Of a stretch of DNA of 64,000 nucleotides, positions 2,863-60,802 are shown one piece after another. The stretch is from Leptolyngbyaceae cyanobacterium JSC-12. Lineage in GTDB: Bacteria; Cyanobacteriota; Cyanobacteriia; Leptolyngbyales; Leptolyngbyaceae. The DNA lies in assembly GCA_000309945.1 (NCBI GenBank), contig CM001633.1, positions 3,188,199-3,252,198 on the forward strand. The letters run 5' to 3'. The position numbers were made by a program, and so were the translations under genes. The notes beneath the pieces were generated by a model. That model saw only the letters and a list, made by a program, of their open reading frames with translations. It did no database searches and had not been told where the DNA came from. The first letter of the stretch is position 1; every line of letters begins with the position of its first letter.

Positions 2863-4234
2863 TAATTCGATGGTTGCGGGTGCTGGTCGCGACCAGGAAT
2901 CCTCCGGGTTTGCCTGGTGGGCTGGTAACGCTCGCTTGATCAACTTGTCTGGTAAGCTGCTAGGCGCTCATGTTGCTCATGCTGGTTTGATTGTTTTCTG
3001 GGCTGGGGCAATGACTCTGTTTGAGACTGCCCACTTCATCCCTGAAAAGCCAATGTATGAGCAAGGGCTGATCCTCTTACCCCACATTGCAACTCTTGGT
3101 TGGGGTGTTGGTCCTGGCGGCGAAGTAGTAGACACCTTCCCCTTCTTTGTTGTGGGTGTTCTTCACTTGATTTCCTCAGCCGTTCTGGGGTTTGGTGGTA
3201 TCTACCATGCTCTTCGCGGTCCCGAAGTGTTGGAAGACTATTCCAACTTCTTCGGTTACGACTGGAAAGATAAGAACCAGATGACCAACATCATTGGTTA
3301 TCACTTGATCCTGTTAGGATTAGGTGCATTTTTGCTGGTGATTAAAGCCATGTTCTTAGGTGGTGTTTACGATACATGGGCACCAGGCGGCGGTGACGTT
3401 CGTGTCATTACCAATCCAACGTTGAATCCTGCGACAATTTTTGGCTATCTGCTGAAGTCTCCTTTTGGTGGAGATGGCTGGATTGTCAGCGTTGACAACA
3501 TGGAAGATGTGATCGGTGGTCACATTTGGGTTGGTCTGATTTGTATCTTCGGCGGTGTTTGGCATATTCTGACCAAGCCTTTTGGTTGGGCGCGTCGGGC
3601 TTTCATCTGGTCTGGAGAAGCTTATCTTTCTTACAGCTTAGGTGCGCTGTCTTTGATGGGCTTCATTGCTTCCACAATGGTTTGGTACAACAACACTGTT
3701 TATCCCAGCGAATTCTATGGTCCTACTGGACCTGAAGCCTCTCAGGCTCAAGCTTTGACTTTCCTGATTCGTGACCAACGGTTAGGTGCAAACGTCGGTT
3801 CTGCTCAAGGTCCTACAGGTCTGGGTAAATACCTGATGCGCTCTCCGACTGGTGAAATCATCTTCGGTGGTGAAACTATGCGCTTCTGGGATTTCCGCGG
3901 TCCCTGGTTGGAGCCTCTGCGCGGACCCAACGGTCTTGATTTGAACAAAATTAAGAATGACATTCAACCTTGGCAAGCTCGCCGCGCGGCTGAATACATG
4001 ACTCATGCTCCTCTGGGTTCTCTGAACTCTGTGGGAGGCGTGGCGACGGAGATTAACTCCTTTAACTATGTGTCTCCTCGTGCTTGGTTAGCAACCTCCC
4101 ACTTTGTTCTGGGCTTCTTCTTCCTGGTTGGTCACCTTTGGCATGCTGGTCGTGCTCGTGCAGCAGCAGCAGGCTTTGAAAAGGGGATTGATCGTGAGTC
4201 TGAACCTGTACTATCTATGCCTAACCTTGACTAA
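2846..4234 (+). CDS. psbC: Photosystem II CP43 core antenna protein
   Basis: CP43 binds chlorophyll a around the reaction centre, and its large lumenal loop helps ligate the Mn4CaO5 cluster. The 462-aa product carries the expected six membrane helices and the very conserved stretches [35 protein letters not shown] and [17 protein letters not shown]. The last holds the Glu and Arg near the oxygen-evolving centre. The C-terminus NFVLGFFFL-type helix and [17 protein letters not shown] are normal. The start is a GTG inside psbD with a strong internal ribosome binding site, so translation is probably coupled. Nothing here resembles an altered pigment-binding paralogue. A terminator follows. Confidence 0.97.
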
Positions 4235-39364: not shown

Positions 39365-40786
39365 CTACGCCTGGTGACGAGCCTGACTGGTTTGATTAAT
39401 CAGGTCGCTTAACTGGCGTAAGGTTTGCATCATCGACGAGTCATTCTCTTTGAGTTGAGCAATCTTATCACAGCTATACATCACTGTTGTATGGTCTTTG
39501 CCACCAAATACTTCCCCAATCTTGGGCAAACTCAGATCAGTATGCTGCCGCATCAGGTACATGCCAATCTGACGAGATGTGCTAACTTCCCGGCGCCGGG
39601 AACTACCTTTCAAGTCCTCAATCGTTACATCAAAGTGCTCTGAAATTACTTTCAAAACATCATCTGGAGAAGCTTCCACCTGTTCTACAGGTGGGTTCAA
39701 CACTGGAGCAATATTCTCAACTGTCATGGGTAACCCTGCAATTGAGATATAAGCCACAGCCCGGATCAGCGCTCCTTCCAGTTCCCGAATGTTGGACGTA
39801 TAGCTAGAGGCAATGTACTCAATTACCTCTCGCGGCAACCGCATATTTTCGTACTCGGCTTTTTTCTGCAAAATCGCCATCCGCGTTTCCAGATCGGGAA
39901 TTTGAATATCAGCAATCAACCCCATTGAAAACCGTGAACAGAGCCGCTCTTGCAATCTGGGAATCTGATTGGGTGGGCGATCGCTGGCCAGGACCACCTG
40001 TTTCCCTGCTTCGTGTAGCGTGTTAAAGGTATGAAAAAATTCCTCCTGGGTATACTCCTTACCTTCAATGAACTGAATATCATCCACCAGCAACACATCT
40101 GCTGCCCGATAGTGCTCCCGAAACGTCTGCATACTGTCTCGCCGGATGGCTGTGATCAAATCATTCGTGAACTGCTCAGTAGACACATAAAACACCCGCG
40201 AACTAGGACAAATCTCCAGGCGATAGTGCCCGATCGCCTGCATTAGGTGCGTTTTGCCCAATCCAACCCCGCCACACAAAAACAGCGGATTAAACTCTCG
40301 TCCTGGGGATTCTGCCACTGCCAGCGATGCAGCATGAGCCATGCGGTTATTGGAGCCAACGACCAATCGAGAGAATACGTACTTAGGGTTTAGCTCCGTG
40401 GAGCGGGGGCGATCTGAGGTTTGAGCGATTGTAGTTTGGGCAGCAGGTGGCAACGGTTCTGTCAAGTTAGCTGGCTTCGCTTCCAGCGGTAGTGTCCAGC
40501 AAAAATCAGGATCGACTGGATTGCCTTCATCATCACAGGCAACAGTCATATGAATTTCAATCGGACGCCCCACAATCTCATGAATCACATCCGTAATCGT
40601 CTTGAAATAATATTTCTTCAGCCACTTCCGTGCAAAAGGGTTGGACGTTCTCAACACCATGCGAGTATCTGTCAGTTCCTCAACGACTGCCGTTTTAATC
40701 CAGGCTTCGTAAGTCGGACGGTTGAGCAATAATTGCAGGCGTTCCAACACCTCTGACCAAAGATCGTCAATCGCTATTAATTCCAC
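39365..40786 (-). CDS. dnaA: Chromosomal replication initiator DnaA
   Basis: DnaA opens the origin by binding 9-mer boxes and also regulates genes. The 473-aa product has domain I (1-80, [18 protein letters not shown]), a short linker with [20 protein letters not shown], the AAA+ domain with Walker [13 protein letters not shown] and Walker [10 protein letters not shown], sensor regions, and domain IV with [37 protein letters not shown], which contacts DnaA boxes. The GTG at 40786 with TTGAGG six bases upstream gives the normal N-terminus; a longer frame to 40819 is rejected. One TTTTCCACA box lies at 41015-41023 in its upstream region. Confidence 0.95.
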
Positions 40787-41252
40787 GGCTGACCTCAAGC
40801 TACTCCCAAACAACAGCAAACCAGAAGCAAATCTAGCAAGGGACGCACATAAAAAACGATGGCTTCAGCAGTTTAGAGAAAGGCGAGAAACTGATGATTC
40901 CCTGCGTTCTCAGAAACTCCCTAATAGACACTACATGCGGAGTTTATTGAGTCCAACTTGCTCCAGATATAGTGTATCAGGTTATGATTTACTGCCAAGA
41001 TTGGTATGTACTACTTTTCCACAGGTATCTAGCTCAGCAGGAAAATGCTGCTGGTAGTCTACCCCATCCATTCCAAATAAGCAGAAAACATGCACTGAAC
41101 TTAAAGTTTGATGCAATGTTCCCGTTCAAGACGGTGAATTTGTAAAAAAATAAAAGCCAGGAGTCAGGTGGTTTGCCACTTCTAACTCTTGGCTCCTAAA
41201 CTACTTAATGCCTATTCAACTCCCAGTTCCTGATTTTGCTTGGTCTAAGCCT
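40787..41252. other. dnaA upstream region with one DnaA box
   Basis: TTTTCCACA at 41015-41023 matches the cyanobacterial DnaA box and may allow autoregulation of dnaA. An imperfect hairpin (AGCCAGGAGTCAGGTGG facing CCACTTCTAACTCTTGGCT, about 41155-41194) lies close to the anti-sigma gene's 3' end, where it could stop the transcript of 41253-43428. I see no gene in this 466-bp gap. Confidence 0.5.
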
Positions 41253-48052: not shown

Positions 48053-48152
48053 TTGCCATTTCTCCGGACGACTCTGGGATAACACCGAAGAGTGGAGTGG
48101 TAGATGCACCCTGATTGTCGCCCCCGGTCCCAAGCTGGGGGCTTTATTATTT
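48053..48152 (+). ncRNA. Candidate small RNA with intrinsic terminator
   Basis: A plus-strand hairpin, GCCCCC (48120-48125) with GGGGGC (48137-48142), is followed by TTTATTATTT (48143-48152), the shape of an intrinsic terminator. No plus-strand gene lies upstream to need it. A weak promoter is possible: TTGCCA (48053-48058) and a GATAAC-type -10 (48078-48083). That would give an RNA of roughly 60 nt. It could also be the 3' end of a longer untranslated transcript, or inverted repeat noise. I do not recognise a known RNA family. Confidence 0.35.
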
Positions 48153-57629: not shown

Positions 57630-58730
57630 ATGTCTCTTCCTCGTCGTGGTTACACTCTTCCTGTCTTTGCTTGTGCTGGAGCGATCGCAGCTCTGCGTTG
57701 GCTACAAACCACAATCATGTCTGCTACGGTTCCTGTGAATTTAATTGAACCTGTGGAAACAGTCACCATTCCAATTGAGCAGGTAGCTGGAGTATCTGGA
57801 TGCTTTGCTTTAGCAGTGACTCGCAGTGACCCTGGGGATAATCTGGATTTGACTCGGAACACTCCTATTTGGGCAATGGTGGAATGGGGAGAACCAGATC
57901 AGACAGATACGATCGCCTTAATTGGTGGTGAAGGAATTGGACGATTAGCTAGTGGGCAACCTGCGATTTATCACTATGCTCAGCAACTTCTAATTGAGAA
58001 CTTAACGCCACTGTTAGCCCCAGGGCAATCCATTCGGGTCACGCTCATGTTGCCAGAGGGACGCGCTCTGGCAAAACGCACCTCTAACGAGGCTTTTGGG
58101 GTGGTTGAAGGGTTATCTCTATTAGGAACAACTGGTATCTCACAACCATTGAGTGCACCAGGTCAACTAGAGGTTTATCGTCAAGAGTTGCAGCAGAAAG
58201 CACAGCAATTTCAATGTCTAGTGTTTTGTGTGGGCGAAAACGGACTGGATCTGTGTCAGCGCTTGGGCATTGACTCAGCACGCCTGGTGAAGACGGCAAA
58301 TTGGCTGGGACCAATGCTAGTTGAAGCTGGTATGCAAGGGGTGCAGTCTATTCTGTTATTTGGCTATCACGGCAAATTAATCAAGCTGGCAGCAGGGATT
58401 TTCCACACCCATCATCATGTAGCAGATGGGCGGTTGGAAATTTTAACGGCTCATTGTGCCAATGCAGGCTTGCCAACTTCCGATCTTCAGGCAGTGTTTC
58501 AGTGTTCCACGGTAGAAGATGGCTTCAATTATCTGCATAAATTAGGCGGTCAATGGGTCGAAAAGGTGTATGGAGCGATTGTGGAGGCAATCGATCAGCG
58601 TGCTCAAGCCTACATTCATGCTCACAGCAATACGGAAGTCGCGATCGGCACAACTTTATTTAATCGGAAACGCCAAATAATTAGCTCTAGTAAAAGAGGA
58701 ACAATCTTGCTCCACGATGTCTGCTCATAG
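57630..58730 (+). CDS. cbiD: Cobalt-precorrin-5B (C1)-methyltransferase CbiD
   Basis: CbiD methylates C1 of cobalt-precorrin-5B in anaerobic-type corrin (B12/pseudo-B12) synthesis. The 366-aa product has RRGYTLPVFACAGAIAAL at the N-terminus, VTRSDPGDNLDLTRNTPIWA, IGGEGIGRL, TTGISQPLS, VGENGLDLCQRLG, LLFGYHGKLIKLAAG with FHTHHHVADGR, and TAHCANAGL, as in the family. A CRP-type palindrome is 90 bp upstream. Other cob/cbi genes are not in the window. Next gene, guaA, follows after 108 bp. Confidence 0.93.
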   Translation: MSLPRRGYTLPVFACAGAIAALRWLQTTIMSATVPVNLIEPVETVTIPIEQVAGVSGCFALAVTRSDPGDNLDLTRNTPIWAMVEWGEPDQTDTIALIGGEGIGRLASGQPAIYHYAQQLLIENLTPLLAPGQSIRVTLMLPEGRALAKRTSNEAFGVVEGLSLLGTTGISQPLSAPGQLEVYRQELQQKAQQFQCLVFCVGENGLDLCQRLGIDSARLVKTANWLGPMLVEAGMQGVQSILLFGYHGKLIKLAAGIFHTHHHVADGRLEILTAHCANAGLPTSDLQAVFQCSTVEDGFNYLHKLGGQWVEKVYGAIVEAIDQRAQAYIHAHSNTEVAIGTTLFNRKRQIISSSKRGTILLHDVCS

Positions 58731-58838: not shown

Positions 58839-60449
58839 GTGGTGACTCTACAAACTCAGCAGCCGCCTGAAAAAGTTTCAGCCAATCAATTGAATCGCCA
58901 AACCATCGTTATTCTGGATTTTGGCTCCCAATACTCTGAGTTGATTGCCCGGCGCATTCGGGAAACACAAGTCTATTCGGAAGTATTGTCTTATCGCACA
59001 ACAGCCGAGCAACTCCAGCAACTCAACCCCAAAGGCATTATTTTGTCTGGTGGTCCCAACTCCGTATATGACCAGGGTGCACCTCAATGCGATTCAAAGA
59101 TTTGGGGACTAGGCATTCCTATCTTGGGAGTCTGCTATGGAATGCAACTGATGGCTCAACAACTTGGTGGCGAAGTGGAACGTTCTGAACAGGGCGAATA
59201 TGGCAAAGCTTCCTTGCTAATTGATGATCCCACTGATTTACTCACTAATGTGGACGATGGCACCACGATGTGGATGAGCCATGGTGATTCGGTCACCCGT
59301 TTACCCGATGGGTTTGAAGTGCTTGCCCATACCGAAAATACCCCTTGTGCGGCTGTTGCTCATCATGAGAAGAAATTGTACGGAGTTCAATTTCATCCAG
59401 AAGTAGTTCATTCCGTTGGTGGACAGGCGCTAATTCGCAACTTTGTTTATCACATCTGCGATTGTGAACCTACCTGGACAACTGCTGCCTTTGTAGAAAG
59501 CTCTATTCGAGAAATTCGTGCCAAAGTGGGCGATAAGCGTGTGTTACTTGCGCTGTCTGGCGGGGTAGATTCTTCAACCCTGGCATTTTTACTGCATCAG
59601 GCAATTGGGGATCAGCTTACCTGTATGTTCATTGATCAGGGTTTCATGCGTAAGCTAGAACCTGAACGCTTGGTCAAGCTGTTTCAAGAACAATTCCACA
59701 TCCCTGTGGAATACGTAAATGCTCGTGATCGCTTCTTGCGGGCGATCGCAGGTGTCACAGACCCCGAAGAAAAGCGCAAACGAATTGGACACGAATTCAT
59801 TCGGGTATTTGAAGAAGAATCCAGACGCCTTGGTCCTTTTGACTATCTCGCACAAGGAACCTTATATCCCGATGTGATTGAATCTGCTGACACCAATGTT
59901 GATCCTAAAACGGGCGAACGAGTGGCAGTCAAAATTAAAAGTCATCACAACGTGGGTGGATTGCCTAAAGATCTTAGATTTAAGCTAGTAGAACCACTGC
60001 GCAAGCTGTTTAAAGACGAAGTTCGCAAAGTTGGGTTATCGATTGGTTTGCCAGAAGAAATTGTCAAACGTCATCCGTTCCCTGGTCCTGGCTTGGCTAT
60101 TCGGATTCTGGGAGAAGTGACAGAAGAACGGCTGGAGATTCTGCGGGATGCCGATTTTATTGTGCGGCAAGAAATTAATCGTAGTGGTGCTTATAACGAA
60201 TTGTGGCAAGCGTTTGCTGTATTGTTGCCAATTCGCAGTGTGGGTGTCATGGGTGATCAGCGAACCTATGCATACCCGATCGTGCTCCGGTTTGTCACCA
60301 GCGAAGACGGTATGACGGCTGACTGGGCGCGTGTTCCTTATGATTTGCTGGAAACAATTTCTAATCGAATTGTGAATGAGGTGCGTGGGGTTAACCGGGT
60401 TGTGTATGACATCACCTCAAAACCCCCCGGAACCATTGAGTGGGAGTAA
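58839..60449 (+). CDS. guaA: GMP synthase (glutamine-hydrolysing)
   Basis: GuaA converts XMP to GMP with glutamine. The 536-aa product has the class I amidotransferase domain (20-215) with [10 protein letters not shown] (Cys nucleophile) and VQFHPEV (His), and the ATP pyrophosphatase domain with [17 protein letters not shown] (PP loop). The dimerisation domain follows with [16 protein letters not shown] and the C-terminal [13 protein letters not shown]. The start is GTG at 58839; the next codon is also GTG. The stop is 15 bp before a DnaA-box-like array. No IMP dehydrogenase gene is near. Confidence 0.96.
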
Positions 60450-60464
60450 TATTCCTCAACCTTC

Positions 60465-60542
60465 TGTGGAAAACGTTGAAAATATTGTGGAAAACGTTGG
60501 GGTTTTACACAGAGCCTGTGGAAAACGTTGGGGTTTTACACA
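60465..60542. repeat. Array of five DnaA-box-like 9-mers
   Basis: TGTGGAAAA (the reverse of TTTTCCACA) occurs at 60465-60473, 60486-60494 and 60517-60525. TTTTACACA, a related form, occurs at 60503-60511 and 60534-60542. The last four boxes form two copies of a 31-bp unit (60486-60516 and 60517-60543). TTTTCCACA is the DnaA-box type used in cyanobacteria. The array is in the intergenic gap after guaA and may bind DnaA as an origin, a titration locus or a regulatory site. Confidence 0.6.
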
Positions 60543-60586
60543 GGTTACAATCGCCATTGGATTCTATTACCTGGAGATGCATGACG

Positions 60587-60802
60587 ATGTTTTTAGATGA
60601 ACTGACTCCTGTACTAAAGGAGTTGTCTCAACAACCGATCGCCTTTCTTGGCGGTTTTTTCTCTGGAGTTTTCCGTCTTAACTTGACAGACGATCCGGTG
60701 AAAACCTGGTTGGATAAGCAAGCTGGAACGACCTCATTTTCCTCAACAACCGAAGTTCACAATGGCAAGAGTGGAGGGCCGCAGTCGATCTCAATCGAGT
60801 AG
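60587..60802 (+). CDS. Small conserved hypothetical protein, 71 aa
   Basis: The product has MFLDELTPVLKELSQQPIAF then a hydrophobic FLGGFFSGVFRLNL segment, a VKTWLDKQAG stretch and a Ser/Thr/Gly-rich tail. The pattern looks conserved and may pack as one amphipathic helix plus a short membrane-touching segment. GGAG lies 10 bases upstream of ATG 60587; ATG 60581 is the alternative. A longer frame to 60440 would run across the DnaA-like boxes and is rejected. I know no function. It is the first gene after the box array. Confidence 0.6.
   Translation: MFLDELTPVLKELSQQPIAFLGGFFSGVFRLNLTDDPVKTWLDKQAGTTSFSSTTEVHNGKSGGPQSISIE

Follow-up and report, generated by a model that had tools for sequence, protein, structure and literature searches.

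The window, by which we mean the whole 64-kb stretch of DNA analysed here, covers positions 3188199-3252198 of a single-contig cyanobacterial genome of 5,530,391 bp. A motif scan of the window found five TTTTMCACA boxes within 78 bp (60465-60542), at the 3′ end of a gene that we take to be guaA, following the original prediction. Three of these boxes form a core whose arrangement is the same in relatives. The features of the locus, together with dnaA from the same window, are as follows.

39365-40786, minus strand: dnaA, encoding a canonical DnaA with the box-reading C-terminal domain present
41015-41023, plus strand: single TTTTCCACA upstream of dnaA, 229 bp before the dnaA start at 40786
58839-60449, plus strand: presumed guaA (GMP synthase), with the array at its 3′ end
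60465-60473, minus strand: DnaA box 1, TTTTCCACA, conserved core
60486-60494, minus strand: DnaA box 2, TTTTCCACA, conserved core, 21 bp after box 1
60503-60511, plus strand: TTTTACACA, inverted partner of box 2
60517-60525, minus strand: DnaA box 3, TTTTCCACA, conserved core, 31 bp after box 2
60534-60542, plus strand: TTTTACACA, inverted partner of box 3 (duplicated unit, copy 2)
60486-60543, no strand: local duplication from a repeat search, two 27-bp copies (60486-60512 and 60517-60543) spaced 31 bp
60587-60802, plus strand: ORF of 71 amino acids, 45 bp after the array

Elsewhere in the window, Rfam matches were found to IsrR, the antisense RNA of isiA (3263-3449, 174.5 bits), and to NsiR1, the nitrogen stress-induced RNA 1 (48098-48149, 47.1 bits).

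The dense DnaA-box array that had been predicted after guaA was borne out, with all five boxes in place. As a chance model, 200 first-order Markov windows of 64 kb each were simulated, in which the maximum number of TTTTMCACA boxes per 78 bp was 0 in 36 windows, 1 in 163 windows and 2 in a single window. The duplicated unit, described originally as 31 bp long, does contain four of the five boxes, but the repeated unit itself is 27 bp and recurs after 31 bp. Two further boxes of the original prediction were also found, one upstream of dnaA at 41015 and one at 58399, inside the ORF 57630-58730 (named cbiD in that prediction). Across the whole window, TTWTNCACA was not enriched (10 found vs 6.35 expected, with 14 of 100 shuffles equally high), and genome-wide there were 127 single TTTTMCACA boxes vs 99 of the reversed motif, which shows that the signal is clustering and not abundance. 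The TTTTACACA partners were found near 2 of 47 other guaA arrays (one each, at L089 and L124) and were absent near the arrays of the same-genus genomes G002 and G001, so the TTTTACACA pair of the window looks like a local duplication.

The original prediction had proposed a comparison of guaA neighbourhoods in relatives, and the array does recur there: of 122 distinct guaA loci, scored over 1.2 kb, 44 carry a core of three same-strand TGTGGAAAA (that is, TTTTCCACA) 3′ of the gene, while the other 78 loci have no array. For the scoring of guaA flanks, genes were picked regardless of boxes, and a cluster was called when at least two exact boxes lay within 60 bp of each other in the 800 bp 3′ of the gene; 3 of 80 named guaA loci were left out as short. 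In the relatives set, 18 of 30 loci had such a cluster 3′ of guaA; the counts were 16 of 22 for further loci of the class and 14 of 77 for named genomes. Since these three sets overlap, 44 of 122 is the cleaner figure. As controls, none of the three sets had a cluster of the reversed motif, reversed boxes occurring singly came to 0, 0 and 2, and clusters upstream of guaA came to 0, 0 and 1. Over the overlapping sets, 145 of the 159 boxes 3′ of guaA were TGTGGAAAA on the guaA strand.

A scan of the whole class for same-strand triplets (gaps of 6-30 bp) gave hits in 97 of 194 genomes, compared with 0 of 194 for the backward pattern. guaA was detected in 188 of these genomes, and at least 39 of the 188 have an exact triplet on the same strand, 19-1090 bp past the end of the guaA hit; the guaA position was unavailable for three of the 82 classified genomes (G114, G173 and G200). 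The guaA-linked triplets come from ten families (f1, f3, f7, f8, f18, f19, f24, f25, f28 and f38), and the array was found, for example, in Leptolyngbyaceae C42_A2020_001, Elainella, Kastovskya, Trichocoleus, Kaiparowitsia and Phormidium tanganyikae. No cluster was seen at the guaA loci read from Nostoc, Calothrix, Fischerella, Scytonema, Anabaena, Okeania or Microcoleus, some of which have short flanks. On the GuaA tree, the array trait needs 13 changes vs a mean of 36 for shuffled labels, and 3 of the 13 gains or losses are forced by well-supported branches. The array is thus inherited along lineages, yet has been gained or lost repeatedly, and since 78 of 122 loci do without it and the tree needs 13 gains or losses, it is dispensable or replaceable.

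The internal anatomy of the arrays was compared across relatives. In a pattern-free count of neighbours up to 60 bp apart, the spacings 3′ of guaA were mostly 20, 21, 22 or 31. Among 38 unique triplets, in a count that admits arrays with spacings of 20-22 and 19-33 only, the pair (21,20) occurred 16 times, (21,31) 9 times, (22,21) 6 times and (22,20) 4 times, with three others; the boxes are therefore spaced close to whole helical turns, about two or three. Box 1 is usually followed by C (24 of 26 arrays), as is box 3 (33 of 38). In the 26 arrays with a 12-bp first spacer, this spacer has an A-run about one turn past the A-run of the box itself, and 7 of its 12 positions carry less than 0.4 bits.

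In two genomes the array is separated from guaA. In G017, the gene order is guaA, array and then three genes that we take, from their sequences, to be a response regulator, an SDR and ispE. In its congener G191, the array adjoins the SDR- and ispE-like genes, guaA lies about 1.09 Mb away, and no exact box was found within 18 kb around guaA; the two arrays are identical in 27 of 27 box bases and in 23 of 34 spacer bases. Similarly, in G198 a further gene separates the array from guaA, 1.09 kb away, and in the draft genome G023 guaA is on a different contig and the array keeps the neighbour seen in G198, with 27 of 27 box bases alike and 7 of 23 spacer bases (without gaps). Both separated cases (G191 and G023) come from one family, and guaA-array linkage would be the ancestral order. 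In both genomes the array is intact away from guaA and keeps its other neighbour, and its function appears to be independent of guaA as a neighbour. Separately, at L143, L149, L153 and L183, which belong to four f24 genomes that lack an exact triplet at guaA, a box array follows a different shared gene, 55-85 bp beyond its 3′ end. This gene is presumably TIGR04376-like, and a fragment of it gave no Pfam match; it is as if the array had moved.

These separated arrays bear on the idea that array-bound DnaA acts as a roadblock that halts RNA polymerase at the end of guaA (compare asnC of E. coli), thereby coupling guanine nucleotide synthesis to the replication cycle. A terminator scan from the guaA stop to the array found none, the boxes lie mostly on one strand relative to guaA (145 of 159), a layout that would also suit a transcriptional role, and in E. 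coli, DnaA is reported to act as a transcriptional roadblock and to repress guaB (PMC11317965, PMC2885671). However, the arrays of G191 and G023 are intact away from guaA, which argues against a role as terminator or regulator of guaA, the distance from the end of the guaA hit ranges from 19 to 1090 bp with an intervening gene in G198, and DnaA was not found in E. coli guaB by the ChIP-seq reported in PMC11317965. We therefore regard the roadblock as unlikely.

The place of oriC in most cyanobacteria is the dnaN flank, and TTTTCCACA is the usual DnaA box, as described in PMC4674748. In the genome studied here, dnaN lies about 200 kb from the guaA array and has a box cluster of its own upstream (3049685-3049806), with three TTTTCCACA plus the variants TTATCCACA and GTTTCCACA. 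Box clusters with the same 9-mer, and with 21- and 31-bp spacings among others, were found upstream of dnaN in 22 of 24 loci, these being drawn from the 30 best-scoring dnaN loci and not at random, after 5 short loci and 1 near-copy had been left out. The shared 9-mer and spacings at a published origin position count against a reading in which the boxes are recognized by another protein, such as a nucleoid or regulatory factor, and their likeness to DnaA boxes is coincidental. Assays are reported to have confirmed TTTTCCACA in Anabaena PCC 7120, and the box was tested in vitro for Cyanothece 51142 and is named as the S. elongatus consensus (PMC4674748). What speaks for another protein is that DnaA binding at the array is deduced from sequence and that the array spacing is unlike the double boxes of E. 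coli; on balance, we consider a different reader quite improbable.

The original prediction had also put forward the array as a possible replication origin. The guaA array has a TTTTCCACA cluster and is not adjacent to dnaN. Strand use was 79:73 in the dnaN arrays (both strands) compared to 145:14 in the guaA arrays (mostly one strand). An AT-rich 30-mer (at least 80%) flanks 12 of 48 guaA arrays, 23 of 23 dnaN arrays and 13 of 21 DUF2811 arrays, the dnaN set being AT-richer overall, so that this contrast is supportive but not conclusive as evidence against an origin; in the genome studied here, the best AT 30-mer reaches 70% at guaA and 77% at dnaN, neither being at least 80%. GC skew over 23 sampled stretches (20 of 20 kb plus three slices of the window) showed no V shape, and irregular GC skew has been reported for most cyanobacterial genomes (PMC7198777). 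This irregular skew would leave room for an origin here, or for an additional origin if the chromosome fires at multiple sites, as would the box number and tandem spacing, which resemble some dnaN arrays, and the multiple replication origins that PMC7198777 describes in some cyanobacteria. Since dnaN has boxes of its own and the guaA arrays are less often AT-flanked, an origin at guaA is disfavoured and, in our judgement, very unlikely.

A third original suggestion, that the array is a promoter through which DnaA controls the small ORF at 60587, is highly improbable. This ORF begins 45 bp past the array, but it has relatives in no other fetched locus, arrays occur in relatives without it, it has no Pfam match, and a scan for sigma-70-type promoters between the array and the ORF found nothing; on these grounds the promoter reading was set aside, and the ORF is probably not the target of the array. 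A terminator-like hairpin with a T-tract lies inside the ORF at 60637-60656 (1 site vs 0.8 expected), hinting that the ORF may belong to the guaA 3′ region, and the ORF is possibly no gene. Finally, a REP- or MITE-like repeat or hairpin, as opposed to a protein-binding site, is a scarcely credible explanation: the region of box 3 and the last TTTTACACA does fold as an imperfect RNA hairpin, but the fold z-score is just -1.64, the repeat search gives no inverted pair, inverted boxes are rare at other guaA arrays as noted above, and no second copy of the unit TGTGGAAAACGTTGGGGTTTTACACA was found in the genome, even when as many as 3 mismatches were allowed.

Arrays at guaA are part of a wider pattern. 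The genome studied here has TTTTCCACA repeats elsewhere, at 1168127-1168208 (four), 2273909-2273959 (three) and 4732078-4732108 (two), of which the first and the last are upstream of DUF2811 genes. One of these genes is listed here.

L254:1964-2161 (about 4731475-4731645): gene for a DUF2811 small protein, with homologues in L287-L316

A shared ORF beside many arrays proved to be DUF2811. DUF2811 is found in 190 of 194 cyanobacterial genomes and, among 14 controls, only in Synechococcus elongatus; its AlphaFold model suggests three helices with a mean pLDDT of 64, too weak for a fold search. In a draw by HMM score (the 30 best-scoring loci, not a random draw, less 1 near-copy), 21 of 29 DUF2811 loci have a box cluster upstream, with boxes mostly 21 bp apart, 62 of 64 boxes in one direction and arrays mostly 250-570 bp before the gene. 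Scans of 15 array loci for Rfam families (at gathering scores), tRNA and tmRNA found nothing.

We then counted addresses among 110 listed merged arrays, which come from 82 of the 97 triplet-positive genomes. In the first classification, 39 triplets fell 3′ of guaA, 27 preceded DUF2811, 13 preceded dnaN, and the remaining 31 had other locations. When the 31 were re-examined, DUF2811 was found downstream of 7 and dnaN or dnaA beside 3 (G122, G029 and G040), which gives revised counts of 39 at guaA, 34 at DUF2811, 16 at dnaN or dnaA and 21 at other places. Thus 89 of the 110 listed triplets are at three addresses, or 90 if G066 is included by inference, where there is no dnaN hit but a gene common to the dnaN-array flanks of G031 and G033. 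The triplet at 2273909-2273959 (L256:2410-2460), three TGTGGAAAA spaced 21/21 between genes that we take to be ppk-like and sigma-factor-like, is outside the three recurrent addresses, and the same-genus genome G002 has no third triplet site among those listed.

Taken together, these results suggest that the array is probably a conserved DnaA-binding locus outside the origin that tunes the DnaA pool, like datA or the clusters of B. subtilis. The titration or binding site is the option we favour from the original three, given that arrays recur away from the origin and persist apart from guaA. With three strong boxes that share one orientation and are separated by about two and three turns, bound DnaA molecules would line up on the same side of the helix. 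The locus would then retain or remodel part of the DnaA pool and so help to time the firing of oriC at dnaN. In the simplest model, DnaA binding to the array would reduce or adjust the amount of free DnaA, and plain titration would be the likeliest mode, ranked above ATP hydrolysis or nucleotide exchange. The 9-mer TTTTCCACA is the published cyanobacterial DnaA box (PMC4674748), and titration of DnaA on the chromosome has been reported in E. coli (PMC12371093). In B. subtilis, removal of all six non-origin clusters leads to early initiation, and the same review states that clusters with a significant role in initiation control were not identified there (PMC5295017). Several observations count against a DnaA-binding locus: the array is missing from 78 of 122 guaA loci; in vivo, E. 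coli DnaA prefers double boxes 2-3 bp apart (PMC11317965), which the array spacing does not resemble; the distance to dnaN is variable (between 35 kb and 2.0 Mb over 7 measurable genomes); and, as mentioned, the one-strand layout would also suit a transcriptional role.

In most cyanobacteria the chromosome is present in many copies, and in some of them replication proceeds without DnaA (PMC7198777). A bolder and more tentative proposal is that many cyanobacteria possess a DnaA circuit with three addresses (oriC at dnaN, the guaA 3′ end and the DUF2811 upstream region), in which DUF2811 might regulate initiation under the control of DnaA, with the guaA array acting as a movable sink for DnaA in polyploid cells. 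A literature search, which covered few subscription papers, found no paper joining DnaA boxes, guaA and cyanobacteria, a link that may nonetheless have been published, and none mentioning DUF2811; one paper that brings DnaA-box clusters and cyanobacteria together presents an origin-prediction server. To our knowledge, little is known of what sets initiation in the cyanobacteria that do use DnaA. Conserved DnaA-box clusters outside the origin would offer a concrete, deletable handle on this control, and they also draw attention to DUF2811, a gene of nearly all genomes in the class.

The array was compared with known systems. The cyanobacterial oriC at dnaN has the identical 9-mer, and its 21- and 31-bp spacings are partly common to the guaA arrays, but in the sampled set it differs by its two-strand layout, larger number of boxes and AT-rich flank. 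Two kinds of E. coli DnaA-box cluster change the activity of DnaA, datA inactivating and DARS reactivating it (PMC5742627). Like datA, the array is a DnaA-box cluster at a fixed address outside the origin; the minimal form of datA spans 262 bp and includes an IHF-binding site (PMC5742627), whereas the array of the window, compared here on its DnaA boxes, is shorter, tandem and evenly phased. DARS1 and DARS2 have a core of three DnaA boxes outside oriC (PMC5742627), as does the window array, but here, again compared on DnaA boxes, the boxes are head-to-tail at two- and three-turn spacing. The DnaA-box clusters of B. subtilis, as described in PMC5295017, resemble the present case in that several clusters lie outside the origin, also in the genome studied here, and differ from it in that the cyanobacterial arrays recur at guaA and DUF2811 across families.
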